A stretch of DNA of 64,000 bases. Source: Halomonas piscis. GTDB taxonomy: Bacteria; Pseudomonadota; Gammaproteobacteria; Pseudomonadales; Halomonadaceae. Positions within the stretch are counted from its first letter, which is position 1; every line of letters starts with the position of its first letter. The notes beneath the pieces are model-generated. The model was not told the DNA's origin, ran no database searches, and saw nothing but the letters and a program-made list of their open reading frames with translations. The stretch lies in the NCBI RefSeq assembly GCF_031886125.1, contig NZ_CP119391.1, positions 2,604,001 to 2,668,000 on the forward strand. The letters are read 5' to 3'. The translations under genes and the position numbers were made by a program. Below are positions 1 to 47,061 of the stretch, piece by piece.

Positions 1-486
1 TTGGACCTCATGGGAGAGCTGGGAGTGACGTGCAGCCATAGTCGGCCGCGGGTCAGCAACGACAACCCCTTCAGCGAAAGCCAGTTCAAGACCAGCAAGT
101 ACCAACCCGATTATCCCGGGCGCTTCGAGAACATCGTCCATGCCCGGCAGTGGTACAGCGCCTATGTCAACTGGTACAACCTGGAGCACCATCACAGCGG
201 GCTGGCTGGCTTCACGCCGGAGCAGATCTTCACCGGGCGGTACCGCGAGATTGCGGAGGTCCGCCAGCGAGCTCTCGATGATAGCTTCGAAGCGCATCCC
301 GAGCGGTTCCTACGCGGACGCCCCCAGGTGGCGATGCCGCCGGAAAGTGTCTCGATCAATCCGGTACAGCCCGATGACGACGACCCGGCCCCCTACAGCG
401 TGGTGAACTTCCCAACGCTGTCAGCGGCCGGTGGTACCGCGACGAAATCGACATTAATTTTTAACGACGTGTCCAAATCAGGTTGA
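1..486 (+). CDS. IS3-family transposase OrfB, C-terminal fragment
   Basis: This is the C-terminal 161 residues of a DDE integrase-core transposase, open at the window edge. The last catalytic Glu lies in DNPFSESQFKTSKY near residue 27, and the motif YNLEHHHSGL that follows is typical of the IS3 OrfB C-terminus. The first two Asp of the DDE triad are upstream of the window. The TTG at position 1 is very probably an internal codon, not a start. Whether the element is active cannot be judged from this part. Confidence 0.85.
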   Translation: MDLMGELGVTCSHSRPRVSNDNPFSESQFKTSKYQPDYPGRFENIVHARQWYSAYVNWYNLEHHHSGLAGFTPEQIFTGRYREIAEVRQRALDDSFEAHPERFLRGRPQVAMPPESVSINPVQPDDDDPAPYSVVNFPTLSAAGGTATKSTLIFNDVSKSG

Positions 487-488
487 CA
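1..488 (+). mobile_element. IS3-family insertion sequence, right part
   Basis: The window opens inside an IS3-type element whose left part lies outside. The transposase C-terminus is followed at once by a terminal sequence ending in CA at 487-488, as IS3-family ends do, and the transposase stop codon (484-486) lies inside this terminal repeat. Immediately outside, at 489-537, is one half of an attC-like site, so the element seems to have inserted into the last attC of the integron array. The left end and target duplication cannot be seen, so the exact boundary is an inference. Confidence 0.75.
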
Positions 489-537
489 GGTTCCGAGCCC
501 GCGTTTTTGCGGGCGGTTGTGCTTGGCCTTGTTATGC
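489..537 (-). repeat. Truncated attC site (distal end of cassette array)
   Basis: Read on the minus strand this begins with the core GCATAAC (537-531), four bases after the stop codon of the 541-861 gene, and continues into a GC-rich stem with an A-rich loop (apex about 497-517). The expected second half, ending in GTTATNY, is missing because the IS3 end starts at 488. It is therefore half an attC site. Confidence 0.6.
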
Positions 538-540
538 CAG

Positions 541-861
541 TTACAATATTGCCCAAGCAATGATAGCTCCAGGTAAAGCAATAGACGCAATTACAAGGCG
601 CGCTTGATGAGATAAAAAGCCAGCGATTATTGCGCCTACAATGACTTCACCAATTGCCATGAAACCAAACTTTGCTGAATATGCGCCAAACGTATAAATA
701 ATCCAAACCACAGCGACAAGCGGGGCAGTGCCAGCAGAAAAGTTAAACCACCCCCTTTCAACAGGGGCTAATGCTGGGTTGGAATTTGCCGTTGTCATTG
801 CTTTGGCTGAGCCCCCAGCCAAAAAACCCATAATCAATCCAAGTATAATTTTCGAACCCAC
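541..861 (-). CDS. Small membrane protein of unknown function (integron cassette)
   Basis: A 106-residue protein with three hydrophobic segments (about residues 4-20, 45-62 and 68-104) and few charges, so an inner-membrane protein is likely. I recognise no family. The start is an ATG 17 bp inside the cassette from the attC core at 878-884, with AAAGGAGAA just upstream as ribosome binding site, and the stop is four bases before the next attC core. This tight packing is what a one-gene cassette looks like. Expression would depend on a cassette promoter or on read-through from upstream cassettes. Confidence 0.7.
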   Translation of the reverse strand: MGSKIILGLIMGFLAGGSAKAMTTANSNPALAPVERGWFNFSAGTAPLVAVVWIIYTFGAYSAKFGFMAIGEVIVGAIIAGFLSHQARLVIASIALPGAIIAWAIL

Positions 862-877
862 GTAATTCTCCTTTCAG

Positions 878-974
878 GCATAACGCTGAAGCTCAGGTTC
901 GCCGGAGCGCGTAGCGCGGAGGGAACCCAAGCCGCGACAGCGGGTTGGGCGTCACCTGCAGCGCCTCGTTATAC
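878..974 (-). repeat. attC-like recombination site
   Basis: On the minus strand the site starts with GTATAAC (974-968) and ends with GTTATGC (884-878), complementary core sites 97 bp apart. Between them lie imperfect inverted repeats such as CTGCAGGTGAC against GAACCTGAGC, and a central hairpin at about 897-932. The gene upstream (1046-2620) stops 71 bp before it and the next gene (541-861) starts 17 bp after it. Folded single-stranded attC structure is the expected substrate of the integrase. Confidence 0.75.
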
Positions 975-1045
975 TTTCAATTCTCCACTCGACTCGCTTC
1001 ATACGTTAACGAAAAACTAGGAAATATCATTACTTAGCTGTGCTC

Positions 1046-2620
1046 TCACTCCGCAGCGGCCATTGCTACAAATGGAATTGCGACATCACCTGGGTACAGG
1101 CCTTCCAGCGTAGAAATCATCTCGTTGGTAAGTTGAATAACATCAGGTTCAACAGAATTTAGACTCCTATGTACAACTCGTGGTATTCGATGGAGGCGAT
1201 GAAGAGGATTGTGACAAGTAACAAAATTTGTATCACGAATTGCTGCCCAGTTACCGTGAATAAAACTGGAAGACCAGTCGTAATATTTATCATAAAGTTC
1301 TTTAGCGCCACATTCCTGTGACAATTTCCTTAAGTTACTCTTGGCCCAATGACCAACATCAATATCCAAAAATTCCTGCCAAAAGTCTTCGTTTGCTATC
1401 GAGTGCAGAACATTCTCATCAAGAAAATTTGGTAGATCGCCGTGCGTTTGTTGGGTTTTAAGAAATGCTAACTTTGCTTGGCCCGCGCCGTAAACGCGAT
1501 ACATTTTCCATAATTCAGATGAGTCTGCATGTGAAAGGTACTTGAAGGTAATGCAAACCTCGACCAAGCTTCTGAGCGCTATCGAACCGACAATTTTACT
1601 ATGGACGCGATGCATTCCAATATCTTCTACAATACTCAGCGCATATAGCACCATACCGAACGCGGCATCCAATCTGGGATTGACTCGTTCGGCTTGCAGG
1701 TTACAAAGAAATCTCTGTATTACAATATGACGCGCAGCATATACCGTGTCTGAATCGATGCGGGTTTCAGTAGACTCGTAATCTTGCTTATCAGACGGGT
1801 CGATACAGTGTGTTTCGTAAAGCGATTGTGCCCAAAATTTGTTAATCCATTCTGCTGGGTTACTGCGTCTGAGCGACATTTCCATAGCCCGAATGGACGG
1901 TCGAACGGATCTCATGTCACCTTTATCAGGAAGCACGCGTAGCTCTTCCAATCTCTCAGCGAATGATGGCGGGAATTTCATACGACCGGAAATGATAGGG
2001 ACGATTACTTTGAACCAACGAATGTCCGTAGATTCTTCCGAGTGATGATCTAGTACCTTTGCAATCGCATGTGCAAGCGTATTCCAATCATCGCACGCTG
2101 GCTCAACATCGAGCTCTCGTTTCCATCTGTCTATTCCCGGTAGGTCGTCGATAAGTAGCAATGGTCGTAAAGCTGCGTAACCTAGTGGATGAGTCAGTGC
2201 TATAGAAATGTAACTATGAAATTCATCGTCGGAAACTTCGGCCAATTTTGTTTGGTCAACGACGACCGTAAAATTAATGCCTGTCTCTTTATCTGAATCG
2301 CTGCTTCTCGCAATGTCACCGTCTGACTCTTCGAACCAGTTGCGACAGTACATCGCAATTTTTCGAAAAATATTGAGGTAGTCTCGGCGTTCCAACACGC
2401 TAACCAGAAGTACTGCCCAAAGCATTTCCGGCATGTGGTCATCAGACCACGATGAATTTGACATCTGCGGGATTTGCGCTAGCGGTGGAACCAACTTACT
2501 GCCAAGTCGCTTGTGCTGGTCAGTAGTACTAATATTAAGATCCGAAAACTGTGAGTTTTTTCTCCTTGTCTGGGATTTTCCTGACTTCTTACGCCTCTTT
2601 TTATTTGAGCGCTTGCTCAT
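1046..2620 (-). CDS. DUF5677-like protein (integron cassette)
   Basis: A 524-residue soluble protein. The N-terminal 25 residues are very basic (KRSNKKRRKKSGKSQTRRK) and could bind nucleic acid. The C-terminal third resembles DUF5677 proteins: a helical region with RSLVEVCITFKYLSHAD (about residue 347 on) and a later YDWSSSFIHGNWAAI segment with a conserved-looking Ser and His. No function is established for that family as far as I know. It is the largest cargo of the array, preceded by the attC at 2663-2731 and followed by the one at 878-974. Base composition is clearly more A+T-rich than the host genes to the right. Integron cassettes often carry phage-defence genes, which is a possible role here but is only an inference. 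Confidence 0.7.
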   Translation of the reverse strand: MSKRSNKKRRKKSGKSQTRRKNSQFSDLNISTTDQHKRLGSKLVPPLAQIPQMSNSSWSDDHMPEMLWAVLLVSVLERRDYLNIFRKIAMYCRNWFEESDGDIARSSDSDKETGINFTVVVDQTKLAEVSDDEFHSYISIALTHPLGYAALRPLLLIDDLPGIDRWKRELDVEPACDDWNTLAHAIAKVLDHHSEESTDIRWFKVIVPIISGRMKFPPSFAERLEELRVLPDKGDMRSVRPSIRAMEMSLRRSNPAEWINKFWAQSLYETHCIDPSDKQDYESTETRIDSDTVYAARHIVIQRFLCNLQAERVNPRLDAAFGMVLYALSIVEDIGMHRVHSKIVGSIALRSLVEVCITFKYLSHADSSELWKMYRVYGAGQAKLAFLKTQQTHGDLPNFLDENVLHSIANEDFWQEFLDIDVGHWAKSNLRKLSQECGAKELYDKYYDWSSSFIHGNWAAIRDTNFVTCHNPLHRLHRIPRVVHRSLNSVEPDVIQLTNEMISTLEGLYPGDVAIPFVAMAAAE

Positions 2621-2662
2621 TGTGCACCCTTCGCGTTAAAGGTGATCGTTGTGCGCTAAACG

Positions 2663-2731
2663 GTATAACGTCGCACTCTTGGGCAAACCGAAGCGCAGCG
2701 TAGGTTTGTCCCTAGCAGTGCTTTGTTATGT
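2663..2731 (-). repeat. attC-like recombination site
   Basis: This is the clearest site of the array. On the minus strand ACATAAC (2731-2725) and GTTATAC (2669-2663) are the outer cores, 69 bp in all. Inside, GCACTGCTAGGGACAAACC pairs with GGTTTGCCCAAGAGTGC around a loop of about 13 bases, leaving the small bulges and mismatches that give attC its strand polarity. Confidence 0.85.
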
Positions 2732-2759
2732 TTTCCTATTTAAACTGGACATTAGAAAA

Positions 2760-3650
2760 TCATTTTGTGAATTCTATATCCACTACTTTTGCAGTAGCCT
2801 TACCTTCCTGCCAATCAGATAAAGCTGATTCGAGAGTGTAAAACTTATCTTTTTCCATTTCCTTAACATATCCAGGTTTTAGAGGCTTATTATCACCACT
2901 AAACGAATATTTGCTCACAAGAACAGGATGAAAATCCTCTTCAAAGATCGTGTTACCAGCTTTGTCTTTGAAATAAACAACAACTTTTACTTTATCCAGC
3001 GAACGATCACCTTTGTTTTTTAGTGAAATTCTAACTGCCGGAATTTCTTTTTTTCGGTAAGTGTCTACTCGTTTAGCTAGAAATTCAGTTATTTCAACCT
3101 TATCCATGTAACTCACTTTTTCCGTGAATTCTTCCATAGCCTTAGTGGTTTTTTCGATACCAATCTCGGCAGCTTCAACTCCCGATGAGATTTCGCTCAA
3201 TGCTTTGTATCTAGAAAGGGCTTCTTCAAACTTATTGCTATCAAGAAGCTCCTGAGCTTCCTTCTTAAGACTTTTAACTTTCTGCCTTTCTGCTTCTTCT
3301 TTTTCTCTCTTGATACGGTCTTGCTCAAGGCTCGAACGGTATTTTTCAAGAATTTGTTCGCCGGTTAGACCGTCAATTGCTTTTAAGTTTTCTGCCAGCA
3401 TTGCCTCGTTTGTGGCATCTGACGACTTGCCAGCAAAAGCAGCCCCCATCATTGCTTTGAGTCCACCTTCTCCACCAATAGAAAAATACATTAGAGCTTT
3501 TTGAAATTCCTCGTGGTTTGCCTCTGGCAAGCTTTCAACTATCTTTTTTGTTGATTCCTTGATTGAAGCTTCGCTAGAGGAATCAAACTTAGCTGGGCCA
3601 AAACAACCAGCAAGCACTAACACAAGGCAGGTTAAAATAATCTTTTTCAA
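2760..3650 (-). CDS. Lipoprotein of unknown function (integron cassette)
   Basis: The protein begins with a lipoprotein signal peptide: KK, a hydrophobic stretch and the lipobox LVLAGC. A helical, Lys/Glu-rich middle follows (about residues 100-170, perhaps coiled coil or TPR-like), then a C-terminal beta-rich domain with an Ig-like look (EIPAVRISLKNKGDRSLDKV). I chose the TTG start at 3650 because an AGGAG box lies about 8 bases upstream and it gives a normal signal sequence. The ATG at 3692 would add 14 residues in front of it. I recall similar cassette lipoproteins annotated as DUF6694, but I am not certain. It is flanked by attC sites at 3712-3798 and 2663-2731. Confidence 0.7.
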   Translation of the reverse strand: MKKIILTCLVLVLAGCFGPAKFDSSSEASIKESTKKIVESLPEANHEEFQKALMYFSIGGEGGLKAMMGAAFAGKSSDATNEAMLAENLKAIDGLTGEQILEKYRSSLEQDRIKREKEEAERQKVKSLKKEAQELLDSNKFEEALSRYKALSEISSGVEAAEIGIEKTTKAMEEFTEKVSYMDKVEITEFLAKRVDTYRKKEIPAVRISLKNKGDRSLDKVKVVVYFKDKAGNTIFEEDFHPVLVSKYSFSGDNKPLKPGYVKEMEKDKFYTLESALSDWQEGKATAKVVDIEFTK

Positions 3651-3711
3651 ATCAAAACTCCTTTTTCTGTTTTCTCTATTAATAAGTGACATCAGATTCT
3701 ACGCTCCAAAA

Positions 3712-3798
3712 ACATAACGCCAAGCTTAGCGGCGCCACGACAGTGGCGTCCGGTGGACGGCCCTCGGGCCGGGAACGTACTACAGCGACTGGTTATGC
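3712..3798 (-). repeat. attC-like recombination site
   Basis: On the minus strand GCATAAC (3798-3792) and GTTATGT (3718-3712) bound an 87-bp imperfect palindrome. The outer arms CCAGTCGCTGTAG and CTAAGCTTGGCG pair with mismatches, and the centre holds a GGCCCGAGGGCC hairpin. The site begins three bases after the stop codon of the 3801-4019 gene. Confidence 0.8.
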
Positions 3799-3800
3799 AT

Positions 3801-4019
3801 TTACGATAGCTGCTTCCAGCTCACGTTCGTGCCAAAGGGTGGATAGATTGACATGGATACCGACACTTCATACTTGCCGACCACATTACCGTCAGCGTCT
3901 ACCTCATCGTAGAAGTAATAATCTGTATCCCTTCCTTTGCGCTGCTCCCATTTGGTGTCTGTTTGGACAAGATCATGCCCGTCTTGAATACCTATTTTCT
4001 TTTTATGCTCTTCGCTCAT
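3801..4019 (-). CDS. Small protein of unknown function (second gene of a two-gene cassette)
   Basis: A 72-residue soluble protein rich in charged and aromatic residues (DTDYYFYDEVDADGNVVGKY). I recognise no domain. It follows the 4032-4226 gene by 12 bp in the same cassette, so the two are probably co-transcribed and may act together. The ATG has AAAAGGATGTACTC upstream, containing an AAGGA ribosome binding site. The stop lies directly before the attC site at 3712-3798. Confidence 0.6.
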   Translation of the reverse strand: MSEEHKKKIGIQDGHDLVQTDTKWEQRKGRDTDYYFYDEVDADGNVVGKYEVSVSMSIYPPFGTNVSWKQLS

Positions 4020-4031
4020 GAGTACATCCTT

Positions 4032-4226
4032 TTACTTTTTGACGTCTTCAATTCGGCGGGTTGAGAACGTGGCGGAAGTCATTTCAGTTCTCACGGTGGT
4101 GCCACAATATGGGCAGATGACTGGCTCTCGCTCCTTGCCACCGGGAACACCGCCGCCAATGGTTGAGACATAGAAATCCTTCTTACAGCTTTCGCTGGTA
4201 CACTTCTTTTCCTCCCCTGAGTGCAT
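4032..4226 (-). CDS. Small zinc-ribbon-like protein (first gene of a two-gene cassette)
   Basis: A 64-residue protein with two cysteine pairs: CTSESC near residue 9 and CPYC near residue 38. Together they could form a zinc ribbon. The family is unknown to me. The ATG start (4226-4224) lies inside the GTTATGC core of the upstream attC (4229-4223), so the first codon belongs to the recombination site. The ribosome binding site would then come from whatever precedes the cassette. An internal start is an alternative, since no strong Shine-Dalgarno sequence precedes this ATG. Confidence 0.6.
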   Translation of the reverse strand: MHSGEEKKCTSESCKKDFYVSTIGGGVPGGKEREPVICPYCGTTVRTEMTSATFSTRRIEDVKK

Positions 4227-4291
4227 AACAGGTATTAGACGGAACGCTCAGATATTGAATAAACGCGCAGGCTCGTTCAACAATGTTATCC
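4223..4291 (-). repeat. attC-like site next to the candidate attI
   Basis: On the minus strand GGATAAC (4291-4285) and GTTATGC (4229-4223) form the outer cores, 69 bp apart. The arms pair less well than in the other sites (TTGAACGAGCC against GAGCGTTCC). No gene precedes it: the next core, GTTAGGT, is only 16 bp further upstream (4313-4307). This would make 4229-4312 an 84-bp cassette without a gene. Confidence 0.55.
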
Positions 4292-4306
4292 AGCGTGTCA
4301 CGCTCC

Positions 4307-4354
4307 ACCTAACTCATTGATATATAAAAGTATTAAGAAAAACTCGGCAGCCTA
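4307..4354 (-). other. Candidate attI core and residual attI arm
   Basis: Minus-strand GTTAGGT (4313-4307) is an exact match to the GTTRRRY consensus for the integrase cut site and is the closest such site to intI. The 41 bp beyond it, up to the IS5-family end at 4355, are A+T-rich and include TATATA (4319-4324), a possible -10 element for a cassette promoter reading into the array. Without the IS, the core would lie about 117 bp from the intI start codon, a normal intI-attI spacing. attI sites share little sequence, so the assignment rests on position and the core. Confidence 0.5.
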
Positions 4355-5211
4355 GGGCCTGTTGACGTTTCACATTGGTAGCCATAAAAAGCCGCATGCC
4401 AAGGCCACCATGCTTTCGTAATTTCGTTTGAGCTTATCGTAGCGCGTCGCAATGGCGCGATACGGGTTCAATCGAGCAAAGGCATTCTCAACCAGATGCC
4501 GGTAGCGATATAACCCTCTGTCCAGATTGGCATTTCCTTTTTTCGAGTTACGCCTGCGTGGAATGACGGCAGCCATTCCTTTGGCTTCGACCTGCTCACG
4601 GATACGTTCACTGTCATAGCCTTTGTCAGCCACCAGCGCGTCACCTGCCGGCAAACCGTCAATCAATGCCTGGGCTTCCGTGCTGTCGTGCACTTCACCC
4701 CCGGTTATTCTGAAGGCGATCGGCAACCCATACGCATCCACGGCCAAGTGGATCTTGCTGGTATTGCCTGCACGACTTTTGCCAATGGCTTCTGCATCTT
4801 CCGTGGCAGCCCCAGTGCTATCTTGGTGAGCCTTGACGTAGGAACCATCAATAAATAGCCACTCGACATCAGGATCTTCCACCAGAGAGATGAAAATCCT
4901 CATCAGCTTTCCACTCGCTGACCAGGCGTTGAAGCGCTTGTAGACCGTGTTCCAGGGGCCAAACGCCTCCGGTAGGTCCCGCCACGGGCAGCCGGTTCGC
5001 ATCCGATAAAGGATGCCTTCCACCGTGGTACGCAGATCGGTCTTGTCATAAATACCTTGTTGAAGCAGGATAGATTTCAGCTTCGGCCAGTGTTCATCCG
5101 TGAGCATTTGTCGGGGCATGGCAGGCTTGCAGTTTGTTGGCTTAGGAACCTTTATTCTGTGAGCTTGCCCCTATCCTGCCAATACCCCTGCCATGAAACG
5201 TCAACAGACCC
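4355..5211 (-). mobile_element. IS5-family insertion sequence, copy 1
   Basis: The element is 857 bp, bounded by inverted repeats GGGCCTGTTGACGTTTCA at the left and its near-complement ending in GACCC at the right. A TA dinucleotide flanks both sides (4353-4354 and 5212-5213), fitting the TA target duplication of the IS427 group. One transposase gene fills it. A second copy lies at 19502-20357 in the same orientation. The insertion separates intI from the candidate attI. Confidence 0.9.
4370..5119 (-). CDS. IS5-family (IS427-like) transposase
   Basis: A 249-residue DDE transposase. The N-terminal part holds the DUF4096-type helix-turn-helix region (MLTDEHWPKLKSILL ... GCPWRDLPEAFGPWNTVYKRF). 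The catalytic residues are visible as Asp in FIDGSYVKAH (about 92), Asp in ALVADKGYDS (about 163) and Glu in HLVENAFARL (about 211). Many relatives in this group need a frameshift to make the full protein, but here the reading frame is continuous. It differs from copy 2 at about a dozen residues. No damage is visible, so it may be active. Confidence 0.92.
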   Translation of the reverse strand: MPRQMLTDEHWPKLKSILLQQGIYDKTDLRTTVEGILYRMRTGCPWRDLPEAFGPWNTVYKRFNAWSASGKLMRIFISLVEDPDVEWLFIDGSYVKAHQDSTGAATEDAEAIGKSRAGNTSKIHLAVDAYGLPIAFRITGGEVHDSTEAQALIDGLPAGDALVADKGYDSERIREQVEAKGMAAVIPRRRNSKKGNANLDRGLYRYRHLVENAFARLNPYRAIATRYDKLKRNYESMVALACGFLWLPM

Positions 5212-5229
5212 TAAGCAGGATTCGCACGC

Positions 5230-5274
5230 TTGCGCGTTTTGCCTGGACCAATAATACTGTATGCATAACCAGCT
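5230..5274 (+). promoter_or_regulatory. intI promoter with overlapping LexA box
   Basis: CTGTATGCATAACCAG (5257-5272) fits the LexA pattern CTG-N10-CAG and matches the left half of the canonical box very well. It overlaps the likely -10 TAATAC (5252-5257), which is spaced 16 bp from a -35-like TTGCGC (5230-5235). SOS control of integron integrases through a LexA box over the intI promoter is established in other integrons. The IS5-family end lies only 18 bp upstream of the -35. Confidence 0.75.
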
Positions 5275-5289
5275 TACGAGGAGCACCAC

Positions 5290-6255
5290 ATGGATATGCA
5301 CAGCAGGCCGCCGAAGCTGATGGACCGGGTGAAGGCCACCATGCGCGTAAAACGTTATAGCCCACGCACCGAGAAGACCTACTGTTACTGGATACGCTTC
5401 TTCATCCGGTTCCATGGTGTGCGGCATCCCGCCAGCATGGGAGCCCCCGAGGTCAAGGTTTTCCTGGAATATCTGGCAGTGGAACGCCATGTGGCGGCGG
5501 CTACACAAAACCAGGCGCTGAACGCCCTTGTCTTCCTTTATCGCCATATTCTTGAGCAGCCTTTGGGTGATATCGATGAATTTTCTCGCGCCAAACGCCC
5601 GCGCCGATTACCGGTGGTACTTTCCCATGAACAAGTGACACAGGTACTCAGCCATCTATCAGGCTCCATGCGCTTGATGGGCTCACTAATGTACGGCTCA
5701 GGGCTCCGCCTTCTCGAGACCTGCCGTCTACGTGTTCAGGATATCGACTTCGAACGACAGCTCGTGACGGTGAGGGCTGGCAAAGGCGATAAGGATCGCA
5801 CCACCTTGCTCTCAGAAACTTGTATCCCCTACTTACAGCAGCAGATTGCCACTGCCCAACGCCAACTTGATTATCGGTTGGCTCAGGGCTGCGTGCCCGT
5901 GACACTACCCCATGCACTGAACCGCAAGTATCCGAATGCAGGGATCTCTTTAGCTTGGCAGTGGCTCTTTCCTGCTTCTCGTCCCTGCTTCGACGACACC
6001 GGCAAGGTCGTTCTTCATCATATCCACCCTTCGGCGGTGCAGAAAGCCGTAAAACACGCTATGCGAGCCACTGCGCTGCCACGCCCCGGTTCTTGTCATA
6101 CCCTGCGGCACAGCTTTGCCACTCAACTGCTGAGCCAAGGTACGGATATCCGCACAGTGCAGGAATTACTCGGCCACAAGAGTCTGGAAACGACTCAAAT
6201 CTATACCCATGTGTTGGGCAAGGACTTCGCTGGAGTCCGTAGTCCTCTCGGTTAA
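5290..6255 (+). CDS. intI: Integron integrase (tyrosine recombinase)
   Basis: A 321-residue tyrosine recombinase with an N-terminal SAM-like core-binding domain (about 8-95) and a C-terminal catalytic domain. The catalytic set is complete: Arg in GSGLRLLE, Lys in GKGDKDR, His-x-x-Arg in CHTLRHSFA, His in LLGHKS and Tyr in TQIYTHV. An insertion before HTLRH, containing NAGISLAWQWLFPASRP, matches the extra segment that separates IntI proteins from XerC/D. The start has GAGG 8 bases upstream. It integrates and excises cassettes by attI x attC and attC x attC recombination. It is divergent from the cassettes, as usual, and probably SOS-induced through the LexA box. It appears intact. Confidence 0.93.
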   Translation: MDMHSRPPKLMDRVKATMRVKRYSPRTEKTYCYWIRFFIRFHGVRHPASMGAPEVKVFLEYLAVERHVAAATQNQALNALVFLYRHILEQPLGDIDEFSRAKRPRRLPVVLSHEQVTQVLSHLSGSMRLMGSLMYGSGLRLLETCRLRVQDIDFERQLVTVRAGKGDKDRTTLLSETCIPYLQQQIATAQRQLDYRLAQGCVPVTLPHALNRKYPNAGISLAWQWLFPASRPCFDDTGKVVLHHIHPSAVQKAVKHAMRATALPRPGSCHTLRHSFATQLLSQGTDIRTVQELLGHKSLETTQIYTHVLGKDFAGVRSPLG

Positions 6256-6385: not shown

Positions 6386-6853
6386 TCAGGCGAACACTTC
6401 CGTCCACTCGTCGCGCTTGGCGAGGAGGTCCCGGGCGAGCTCGTGGGCGCCTTCCAGGCTGTGGCTTGCCGCCCAGCCGCACTGCATTTCGTTGCAGGCG
6501 GGTACTTCGTCGGCGTCGACCACGTCTTTCAGGGTGTTTTCGACGATGGTGAGCACGTCGTCGTAGTTGTCGTGGTTGATCATGGCGATGTAAAAGCCGG
6601 TCTGGCAGCCCATGGGGCTGATGTCCACGACCTTGTCGGAGTGGTTGCGCGAGTGCTCGGCCATCATGTGCTCGAGGGAGTGCAGCGCGGGCATTTCCAT
6701 GTGGCCCTTGTTGGGCTGGCAGATGCGCAGGTCGTACTTGTAGATCTTGTCGCCGTGAGCGCCTTCCGTAATGTCCGCCAGGCGGACGTACGGCGCTTTT
6801 ACCTTGGTGTGGTCCAGGTTAAAGCTTTCGACGTTCATCTTCTCTTCGGCCAT
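6386..6853 (-). CDS. luxS: S-ribosylhomocysteine lyase LuxS
   Basis: The protein has 155 residues, the normal size. LuxS cleaves S-ribosylhomocysteine to homocysteine and DPD, the precursor of autoinducer 2, in the activated methyl cycle. The metal ligands are present as His58 and His62 in [10 protein letters not shown] and Cys125 in MQCGWAASH. Glu61 and Cys83 (MGCQTGFY) are the other catalytic residues. The ATG has AGGAGG eight bases upstream. The gene forms its own transcription unit or the end of one with the 6890-7237 gene 36 bp upstream. Confidence 0.96.
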
Positions 6854-7316: not shown

Positions 7317-8813
7317 TCAGCTGCCCGAGGCTGACTCCATGCCGCCCAGGCAGAAGAACTTGGTCTCCAGGTATTCCTCGATGCCCGTGGGGCCGCCTTC
7401 CCGGCCCAGGCCGGACTCCTTGACCCCGCCGAAGGGCACCGGCGCGCCGGTCATCTTCACCGAGTTGACGCTCACCAGGCCGAACTCCAGCCCGCGCATG
7501 ATCTTCCAGATACGGCGCACGTCGTGGGTATAAAGGTAAGAGGCAAGGCCGTACTCGGTGTCGTTGGCAAGCTCGATGGCCTCTTCGTCGGTGGAATACG
7601 GCAGAATGCCGGCCACCGGGGAAAAGCTCTCTTCGTCCCAGACCTTCATTCCCCGGGTGATGCCCGTCAGCAGCACCGGCATGAAGAAGTTGTCGCCGGC
7701 CACCGGGGTCTGGGTGCTCTCGTGGAGCGTCGCGCCCTTGTCCACGGCGTCATCGACGATGCTCTGGGCCTTTTCCACGGCCTTGCCGTGAATCAGCGGG
7801 CCAAGGTCCACGCCGTCTTCCAGGCCGTTGCCTACCTTGAGCGCGGACATGCTCTCCTTGAACGCCTCGACAAAGGCCTCGTGGATCGATTCGTGAACCA
7901 GAATGCGGTTGGCCGCGAGGCAGTCCTGGCCCGAGGTCTGGAACTTGGCCGCCACTGCCGCCTCGGCGGCTTCCTTCGGGTCCATGTCCGGGCCGACGAT
8001 AAAGGGCGCGTTGCCGCCAAGCTCCATGGAGAGCCGCTTGACCGTGCTTGCGCTCTGCTCCATCAGCAGCTCGCCCACGCGGGTGGAGCCGGTGAACGAC
8101 AGCGCCCGAATGCGCGGCTCGGCGCACAGCACCTTGGAGACCGTCGACGGCTCGCCCAGCACCACGTTGAGCACGCCGGCGGGAATGCCCGCACGCTCGC
8201 CAAGCTCGGCAAGCGCGAGCGCCGTGAAGGGCGTCTCGTTGGACGGCTTGATGACCACCGGGCAGCCGGCGGCAAGCGCGGCGGCGGCCTTGCGGGTGAT
8301 CATCGCCAGCGGGAAGTTCCACGGCGTGATCAGCGCAGCGATGCCCACCGGCTCCTTGAGCGAGCCCAAGGCCGCGTTGGGCATGTGGCTGGGGATGGTG
8401 TCGCCGTAGGTGCGTTTGCCCTCCTCGGCGAACCAGCGGATGAAGCTGGCGCCGTACTGCACCTCGCCCCGGGAGTCGCCGATGGCCTTGCCCTGCTCCA
8501 GGGTCATGATGGTGGCCAGGTCTTCGCTGTTCTCCTGAAGCAGCGCGTACCAGGCCTCGAGAATCTCGCTGCGCTCGTTGGCGCGCAGCGCTCGCCAGCC
8601 GGCAAAGGCCGCGTCGGCGGCGTCGACCGCCGCGGTGATCTGTGCCTCTTCCAGCACCGGGATGTGGCCCAGCACCTCGCCGGTAGCCGGATCGGTGACG
8701 GGCTCTTCGCGCCCACCTTCGCCGTGGGTCCATTTGCCGTTGAGGTAGGCGTACTGGCGAATCAGGCGCGGATCCTGCAGACGATCGGACAGTAGAGTGG
8801 ACGGTGCGGTCAT
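7317..8813 (-). CDS. doeC: NAD(P)-dependent aldehyde dehydrogenase, likely aspartate-semialdehyde dehydrogenase DoeC (GabD-like)
   Basis: A 498-residue aldehyde dehydrogenase of the GabD group. Motifs include PWNFPLAMITRKAAAAL (Rossmann region), FTGSTRVGELL, the catalytic Glu264 in SMELGGNAP and Cys298 in TSGQDCLAANR. I start at the ATG at 8813 because AAGGAG lies just upstream; the longer open frame to 8888 has no support. By sequence alone it would be called succinate-semialdehyde dehydrogenase. Its place after doeA-doeB-doeX suggests instead DoeC, which oxidises aspartate semialdehyde to aspartate in ectoine degradation. The partner aminotransferase gene doeD, expected downstream, is not in the window. 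A 191-bp gap separates it from doeX. Confidence 0.8.
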   Translation of the reverse strand: MTAPSTLLSDRLQDPRLIRQYAYLNGKWTHGEGGREEPVTDPATGEVLGHIPVLEEAQITAAVDAADAAFAGWRALRANERSEILEAWYALLQENSEDLATIMTLEQGKAIGDSRGEVQYGASFIRWFAEEGKRTYGDTIPSHMPNAALGSLKEPVGIAALITPWNFPLAMITRKAAAALAAGCPVVIKPSNETPFTALALAELGERAGIPAGVLNVVLGEPSTVSKVLCAEPRIRALSFTGSTRVGELLMEQSASTVKRLSMELGGNAPFIVGPDMDPKEAAEAAVAAKFQTSGQDCLAANRILVHESIHEAFVEAFKESMSALKVGNGLEDGVDLGPLIHGKAVEKAQSIVDDAVDKGATLHESTQTPVAGDNFFMPVLLTGITRGMKVWDEESFSPVAGILPYSTDEEAIELANDTEYGLASYLYTHDVRRIWKIMRGLEFGLVSVNSVKMTGAPVPFGGVKESGLGREGGPTGIEEYLETKFFCLGGMESASGS

Positions 8814-9004
8814 AAATTTCTCCTTATCGGGTACCGGCATCTTTCGCAGGCAGGGACCTGTCGATGCTTTAAGTAGTTGATACCACAAGGATAAGGGAAT
8901 TAACGCGAGAAGTGCTTTTGAAAGCGCCGGCCAAAAATGCGCTTTTTTTGGCGCCGCCGCCGTAAAGTCACGGTTTTTTTTGGCGGCCGGGCTTCAGGCG
9001 CCTG
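8814..9004 (-). promoter_or_regulatory. Promoter-sized gap between doeX and doeC
   Basis: The 191-bp spacer has two runs of T on the plus strand (8942-8948 and 8973-8980) beside GC-rich blocks that can pair (GGCGGC against GCCGCC, about 8950-8990). This could end the doeABX transcript and hold a separate doeC promoter. No clear -35/-10 pair stands out. Confidence 0.3.
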
Positions 9005-9493
9005 TCAGGCGAGCTCGTCCTCGTCGATGGCCGGGGTGGCGCGCTTGACCGTCTTGGTGACGATATAGGTGAAGTAGCGCTCGATGCCGGCGTCGGAGAG
9101 CAGCCAGCGGTCCATGGCGCGCTGATAGCTGTCGATGCTTGCCACCTCGAACTTCACCAGGTAGTCCACCCCGCCGCCCACGGCCACGCACTCGGTGGCC
9201 TCGGGAGTGTCCATGACCAGCGCCTCGAAGCGCGAAAAGCTTTCCGCGTGGTGCTGCTTGAGCTCGATCTGCACCCACACCGAGTTGCCGGGCACGAGCA
9301 CCCGGGTATTGATGCGGGCGCTGTAGCCTTCGATGATGCCGGCTTCTTCCAGCCGTCTGACACGTTCCCAGCAGGGGCTGACCGAAAGGTTGATGGACTC
9401 GGCCAGCTTCGACTTGGTGATGCGCCCGTCCCGGGAAAGGATCGCGAGGATTCTGACGTCGTAACGGTCGAGTTTACACATGGATTTGGGCAT
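9005..9493 (-). CDS. doeX: Lrp/AsnC-family regulator of ectoine degradation, DoeX
   Basis: The protein has about 162 residues. The N-terminal winged helix (LDRYDVRILAILSRDGRITKSKLAESINLS) is followed by the C-terminal RAM ligand-binding domain ending in a TYIVTKTVKR segment. In Halomonas elongata the homologous gene sits between doeB and doeC and its product regulates the doe genes. The start is uncertain: ATGs at 9493 and 9481 are both possible, and a longer frame to 9529 would overlap doeB by 32 bp. I prefer 9493, which leaves 4 bp after the doeB stop and suggests translational coupling. Confidence 0.85.
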   Translation of the reverse strand: MPKSMCKLDRYDVRILAILSRDGRITKSKLAESINLSVSPCWERVRRLEEAGIIEGYSARINTRVLVPGNSVWVQIELKQHHAESFSRFEALVMDTPEATECVAVGGGVDYLVKFEVASIDSYQRAMDRWLLSDAGIERYFTYIVTKTVKRATPAIDEDELA

Positions 9494-46421: not shown

Positions 46422-46498
46422 TGGCGGACCGGACGAGACTCGAACTCGCGACCTCCGGCGTGACAGGCCGGCATTCTAACCAACTGAACTACCGGTCC
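46422..46498 (-). tRNA. tRNA-Asp (GTC)
   Basis: The gene is 77 nt including an encoded CCA. The acceptor pair is GGACCGG/CCGGTCC, the anticodon stem GCCGG/CCGGC with the loop CTGTCAC, and the T arm holds GTTCGAGTC. It is the last gene of a five-tRNA transcript. Confidence 0.95.
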
Positions 46499-46602
46499 GC
46501 TATAAAGCCGTCATGGAACACTCAGGCGCTACGCAGAAAATGGCCGCTGCGCCTTGCGGGCAGGGTCTGATAATCCGTCGCCGATATGCTGCATTTTTGG
46601 CG

Positions 46603-46678
46603 TGGTGGGTGGTACTGGGTTCGAACCAGTGACCCCCAGCTTGTAAGGCTGGTGCTCTCCCAACTGAGCTAACCACCC
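46603..46678 (-). tRNA. tRNA-Val (TAC)
   Basis: The gene is 76 nt with encoded CCA. The acceptor is GGGTGGT/ACCACCC, the anticodon loop CTTACAA gives anticodon TAC, and the T loop is TTCGAAC. Identical by eye to the copy at 46986-47061. Confidence 0.95.
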
Positions 46679-46699
46679 ACGTTCGGGATTCCCTTATCG

Positions 46700-46776
46700 T
46701 GGCGGACCGGACGAGACTCGAACTCGCGACCTCCGGCGTGACAGGCCGGCATTCTAACCAACTGAACTACCGGTCC
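46700..46776 (-). tRNA. tRNA-Asp (GTC)
   Basis: This 77-nt gene with encoded CCA is identical by eye to the other two Asp copies in this operon. Confidence 0.95.
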
Positions 46777-46814
46777 ACTCGATACGGGGTGAAAAAAGCC
46801 TGCCTCTGCTGCGC

Positions 46815-46891
46815 TGGCGGACCGGACGAGACTCGAACTCGCGACCTCCGGCGTGACAGGCCGGCATTCTAACCAACTGAACTACCGGTCC
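46815..46891 (-). tRNA. tRNA-Asp (GTC)
   Basis: This 77-nt gene with encoded CCA is the first of the three Asp copies in transcript order, 38 bp from the next. Confidence 0.95.
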
Positions 46892-46985
46892 ACACAAGTC
46901 ACCGCAGTGCTTTGACTTCTTTCGGGCAGCGAAACGAATTTCGCTGATACGTGTCGGGCCATCTACGCGACGATTGTCGCCTGAA

Positions 46986-47061
46986 TGGTGGGTGGTACTG
47001 GGTTCGAACCAGTGACCCCCAGCTTGTAAGGCTGGTGCTCTCCCAACTGAGCTAACCACCC
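46986..47061 (-). tRNA. tRNA-Val (TAC)
   Basis: This 76-nt gene with encoded CCA is the first of the operon, 19 bp downstream of the -10 element of a strong promoter. Confidence 0.95.

Follow-up and report, generated by a model that had tools for sequence, protein, structure and literature searches.

A chromosomal integron of a Halomonas-like lineage with a shared attI site and defence-like gene cassettes

Next to luxS on the chromosome of Halomonas piscis lies an element that is very probably a chromosomal integron, complete in its parts and belonging to a Halomonas-like lineage. It comprises an integrase gene (intI), an attI site, and six or more captured cassettes arranged in an array. Integrons are a known type of gene-capturing element, and the identity of this one is genuine; all three parts, an integron-type integrase, attI, and an attC array, are present. 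The analysed window (64,000 nucleotides) is part of a single 3,227,066-base contig, which places the element in a chromosomal setting. The cassettes have a G+C content of 0.38–0.50, compared with 0.646 in the window to the right of position 6400, and with about six cassettes the array is smaller than the large arrays by which sedentary chromosomal integrons are recognized. The integrons of one bacterial family are here described as a group that has its own shared attI, of which literature searches found no earlier account. Compared with the original prediction for this region, the attI site is now defined, the array is longer, and two of its cassettes are defence-like.

Integrase, recombination sites, and cassette boundaries

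The features within the window are listed below by coordinates and strand.
1..494, plus strand: right end of an IS3-family element (whole element at window -1107..494, 1602 bp; NF033516, 2.5e-17)
495..537, minus strand: 5' half of the attC of cassette 4 (half-site sequences, IS3 flanks)
541..883, minus strand: cassette 4, 106-aa protein with two hydrophobic segments (ORF 861-541; ORF and hydropathy)
878..974, minus strand: attC of cassette 3, 97 nt (covariance model R2, 26.4 bits, E 0.0002)
884..2668, minus strand: cassette 3, 524-aa DUF5677 protein, DitA-type (ORF 2620-1046; PADLOC DitA; PF18928, 5.4e-16)
2663..2731, minus strand: attC of cassette 2, 69 nt (R2, 35.5 bits, E 4.7e-7)
2669..3717, minus strand: cassette 2, 310-aa predicted lipoprotein with DUF6694 (ORF 3692-2760; PF20404, 4.2e-36)
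3712..3798, minus strand: attC of cassette 1, 87 nt (R2, 39.5 bits, E 3.3e-8)
3718..4228, minus strand: cassette 1, 64-aa ORF (4226-4032) and 72-aa ORF (4019-3801)
4223..4297, minus strand: attI site with the crossover core GTTATGC at 4229-4223 (alignment with relatives; HMM)
4355..5211, minus strand: IS5-family element, 857 bp, transposase of 249 aa (NF033580, 3.1e-85)
5257..5272, plus strand: LexA-box-like site CTGTATGCATAACCAG upstream of intI, one mismatch to CTGTN8ACAG
5290..6255, plus strand: intI, integron tyrosine recombinase, 321 aa (TIGR02249, PDB match, tree)

As originally predicted, an intact IntI diverges from five minus-strand ORFs encoding proteins of 64, 72, 310, 524, and 106 aa. 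IntI scores 399.5 bits against the integron integrase model TIGR02249 (cut-off 265) and 154 and 136 bits against the XerC and XerD models, far under their cut-offs of 335 and 330, and its best PDB chain is 2a3v, IntI4 (2e-81). In a 65-row tree that includes the genome's own Xer-type protein, IntI is placed away from that protein, in a clade (support 99/96) whose 23 members all come from the same family. It does not group with Xer or phage integrases, a placement that the original prediction had named as speaking against it. The nearest relative, 87% identical, comes from another genus of the family (L026). Seven further same-family integrases lie outside the clade: four group with IntI2, two belong to a broader cluster that includes the Vibrio and Shewanella plasmid integrases, and L009 branches at another point in the tree. 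Across the family sample of 201 genomes, our own included, 43 encode an integron integrase whose score exceeds the curated cut-off, and incomplete intI matches, truncated or containing stops, in other family genomes suggest integron loss.

A passage in PMC3108266 describes many integrases as being under LexA control via sites of the consensus CTGTN8ACAG. The LexA-box-like site found here ends 17 bp upstream of the intI start codon, and the 64-kb window contains 10 sites with at most the same degree of mismatch, which weakens the case for the box before intI. IntI would probably be released from LexA repression after DNA damage.

Pairs of RNATAAC...GTTATNY boxes 50–150 nt apart occur just four times in the window, at lengths of 69, 87, 69, and 97. 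Dinucleotide shuffles yielded a mean of 0.08 pairs (maximum 2 in 1000) for the region and 0.12 (maximum 1 in 50) for the minus strand of the window. The lengths and uniqueness of these four palindromes agree with the original prediction, which had taken all of them for attC sites and proposed fold scoring as a further check. An independent covariance model (R2) scored three of the four and gave no match at the 69-bp site 4223-4291, whose assignment as an attC was rejected, as it is matched by the relatives' attI HMM. Judged by eye, an attI can thus be mistaken for an attC.

The attI was delimited by aligning the regions upstream of intI in 18 of 29 relatives, picked by a motif, 17 of which reach attI. 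Conservation extends from the LexA region through CTAATACCTGTTA and is followed by sharp divergence at the point where the first cassette of each genome starts. An HMM built from the 17 relatives, with L031 dropped because it ends too early, matched at 4297-4226 (E 8.9e-19), ending at GTTA. Of the 22 relatives that share the clade with this IntI, the 17 aligned ones have the site; the other five stand outside the comparison, including four clade members outside the motif selection (L015, L022, L028, and L030).

Model R2 was trained on 13 sites of relatives, none from our own genome, namely those of the 21 sites of A2 judged to have one common spacer length. Its covariation is strong, with 78.8% of cells paired vs. 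60.0% in shuffles and none of 500 shuffles as high, and it recovers 12 of its 13 training sites, missing one. Over 20 relatives' loci, it gave 68 matches at E <= 1 and 51 at E <= 0.01, distributed over 17 of the loci. With default filters, a search of the window and of the locus extending beyond it (L038) returned the three attC sites and no other match up to E 5. With filters off, a search of L038 9000-18300 returned just a partial match at window 2667-2727 (19.7 bits) and missed the other two window sites, so detection by R2 depends on the search setting. A whole-genome scan reported two of the three window sites and none elsewhere; as 150 of 4034 candidates were scored, the absence of attC sites elsewhere in the genome is weak evidence.

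The 64- and 72-aa genes belong to a single cassette, so that the five genes in the window form four cassettes. The 64-aa protein is zinc-ribbon-like, with weak Pfam zinc-ribbon matches under the cut-off, and the 72-aa protein has 22 homologues. The 310-aa protein has a hydrophobic N-terminus with LVLAGC, which we take to be a lipobox, and the 106-aa protein has 10 homologues, all of them from contigs shorter than 11 kb. A tblastn search (E <= 1e-5) of the same-family loci L009-L037 and L040-L059 gave no match to any cassette protein encoded in the window or in L038.

IntI enzymes act on the bottom strand of attC in its folded form, recombining it at G^TT with either attI or a second attC, and circular cassettes recombining at this point leave a characteristic box pattern. 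In five of six cassettes (1–4 and 6), the leading GTT-box is perfectly complementary to the R'' box in that cassette's attC: GTTATGC/GCATAAC, GTTATGT/ACATAAC, GTTATAC/GTATAAC, and GTTATGC/GCATAAC for cassettes 1 to 4 and GTTAGCT/AGCTAAC for cassette 6. The leading box of cassette 5 is not complementary to its R'' box (GTTAGAG/AACTAAC). Inside all three intact window sites, the two boxes are one, two, and one bases off exact complements. Judged from these motifs, the pattern is as expected of recombined circular cassettes. The IntI described here would likewise act on the folded attC bottom strand, joining attI or another attC at G^TT.

Insertion elements and the array beyond the window

The extent first assigned to the integron was too short; the array continues about 2.8 kb to the left of the window with two more cassettes (locus L038), and an IS5-family element had been missed. 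This element, bordered by TA on both sides (4353-4354 and 5212-5213), sits between intI and attI within an otherwise conserved block that is uninterrupted in the relatives. Its transposase has the same orientation as the cassettes, and the element may either separate the cassettes from their native promoter or provide one. A consensus scan for the cassette promoter Pc found 3 candidates vs. 6.2 expected from shuffles.

The half site noted at the left end of the window proved real (537-495): it is the 5' half of the cassette 4 attC, which is interrupted by an IS3-family element extending past the window's left edge. The NF033516 match of this element is under the cut-off because the piece inside the window is partial; the 3' half of the attC lies to the left of the window, past the element. 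The IS3 target duplication is near-perfect, with five of six bases matching, and three other insertions in the genome have exact six-base duplications. With the IS3 element removed, the cassette 4 attC measures about 90 nt. By visual inspection its inner arms are matched, but in a free fold of the whole site (-15.1 kcal/mol) the outer arms are unpaired.

Cassette 5 contains an ORF of 176 aa with a DUF559 match at E 0.048, under the cut-off. A fold heuristic identified an attC-like site at L038 10309-10206 whose arms and fold (-27.5 kcal/mol) fit an attC; R2 missed it in all searches covering it. The outermost cassette, cassette 6, encodes a 308-aa Mrr-type endonuclease (Mrr_cat, 2.9e-23; PDC-S02, 2.8e-25) and ends in a half attC adjoining a second IS3-family element (L038 7522-9206, window -4479..-2795), to which two other long stretches of the genome are nearly identical. 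Related IS3-family copies thus occur in or beside attC sites of two different integrons, that of the window and that of L051, where a relative at 7685-9272 (92% transposase identity) abuts an attC-like 5' half on one side and has no target duplication. No attC was found at the IS3 copies elsewhere in our own genome.

The insertion elements also bear on whether the integron still works. In the mechanism we propose, cassettes 1–3, next to attI and with intact attC sites, should still be excisable, and cassette 4 with its split attC is probably frozen; the outer three cassettes (4 to 6) are split or bounded by IS3-family elements. The element may instead be a relic that has lost recombination and cassette expression, with IS5 having parted intI from attI, one IS3 element having split an attC, and the other having left a half site. 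The position of the IS5 element, the IS3 elements at the attC sites of cassettes 4 and 6, and the truncated or stop-containing intI matches of relatives all favour this reading. However, intI is an uninterrupted full-length gene, three attC sites and attI are intact, and integron recombination acts on separate sites, so that distance alone need not block it. We therefore regard a relic as a serious but somewhat doubtful possibility.

Defence-like cargo

The original prediction described the cassette products as having no assigned function, but two are matched by defence-protein models. Judged by these matches, 2 of the 7 cassette gene products probably act in phage defence, namely the DitA-type protein and the Mrr/PDC-S02 protein beyond the window. 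The 524-aa protein of cassette 3 matches PADLOC DitA (PDLC03826) at 2.3e-70 over residues 33-510. Aditi defence systems consist of two genes, encoding DitA and DitB. A scan of eight proteins (seven cassette proteins and one neighbour) gave no DitB match, the presence of a DitB model in the library being unchecked, and cassette 3 is for this reason not filed as an Aditi system.

Among the matches listed, the 524-aa protein has at least 1028 homologues at E <= 0.001, up to 73% identical. DitA-type proteins are nevertheless rare in the sampled genomes, our own included in each sample, with 1/398 for the phylum, 1/369 for the class, and 2/390 for the order. A 37% identical relative from another family of the order has attC matches on both sides and is thus also an integron cassette; its 15.6-kb contig (L137, G930 contig 5) has 23 attC model matches, and the integrase gene of that genome is on a different contig from the cassette array. 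A 56% identical homologue in Dyella nitratireducens (L080) lies beside PADLOC TIR-TM, Hp1, and Hp2 matches, and no attC match was found in its 9-kb locus. Plasmids gave five weak matches, one of which covers at least 80% of the protein (27% identity).

For the relatives' cassettes, 67 of the 68 R2 matches delimited 43 intervals, 6 of them without an ORF, and 37 ORFs were scanned. These matched 38 PADLOC families at E <= 1e-10, each family listed with a single member, and toxin families are also among them; because the tables count families, no rate of defence cassettes is given. DitA-type DUF5677 proteins may act as one-gene phage-defence units without DitB that move between families as cassettes, and Halomonas-type integrons may serve as small defence libraries, as reported for Vibrio, a tentative proposal that we consider rather unlikely to hold as a whole. 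The single-gene DitA-type cassette is a cloneable candidate for asking whether integrons outside Vibrio store phage defences.

Genomic position and comparison with known systems

The gene adjoining intI on the right is luxS (NF002604, 208.7 bits, cut-off 158), which was matched in 25 of 38 genomes searched. None of the 19 relatives' luxS loci fetched (flanks up to 1.5 kb) has intI beside it, and in 19 relatives' loci the neighbour of luxS is the same as here. Compared with 49 relative intI flanks, some genomes being counted twice, no neighbouring gene of intI is held in common bar one match, to L037 (33% over 343 aa), which was judged a paralogue; L037 has a match to the window's aldehyde dehydrogenase. 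No relative examined shares the luxS-side place, so "sedentary", as the small integron had been termed, is true of the lineage, as the integrase tree and the location on the chromosome indicate, and not of the position. Some positions in the family are conserved, as L052, L054, and L057 share genes adjoining intI, and likewise L035, L036, L055, L056, and L058. Farther along the window, a minus-strand cluster of five tRNA genes at 46422-47061 comprises three for Asp and two for Val.

The place beside luxS, found in no relative examined, the surrounding IS elements, and a nearest IntI from another genus of the family would also fit a mobile integron newly arrived via a transposon or plasmid. We consider this quite improbable, as IntI lies within the same-family clade and no plasmid record at least 60% identical to it is among the best 5000 matches listed. 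A genomic or defence island whose palindromes arose by chance would account for the defence-like genes and IS elements that such islands typically carry, but is in our judgement refuted by the matches to IntI, attI, and attC models, all integron-specific, and by four site pairs where 0.08 are expected.

As a chromosomal integron, the element can be compared with several known systems. It resembles Aditi in that its 524-aa protein matches PADLOC DitA, but differs from it as a single-gene cassette with no DitB match in the proteins scanned. The 308-aa protein outside the window matches both the PDC-S02 and the Mrr-type restriction endonuclease models, yet unlike these it is borne as an integron cassette. 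With the sedentary chromosomal integrons of, for example, Vibrio and Xanthomonas, the element shares the chromosomal location, the LexA-like box before intI, an integrase that groups by host family, and diverse cassettes, some of them defence-like; phage-defence cassettes of the V. cholerae integron are the subject of work cited in PMC12444791. In contrast to these integrons, it has about six cassettes, a position found in no relative examined, and IS elements inside the array. With the same-family integrons (L009-L037 and L040-L059), it has the attC type and, with 17 of the clade relatives, the attI in common, whereas the cassette proteins and flanking genes differ.
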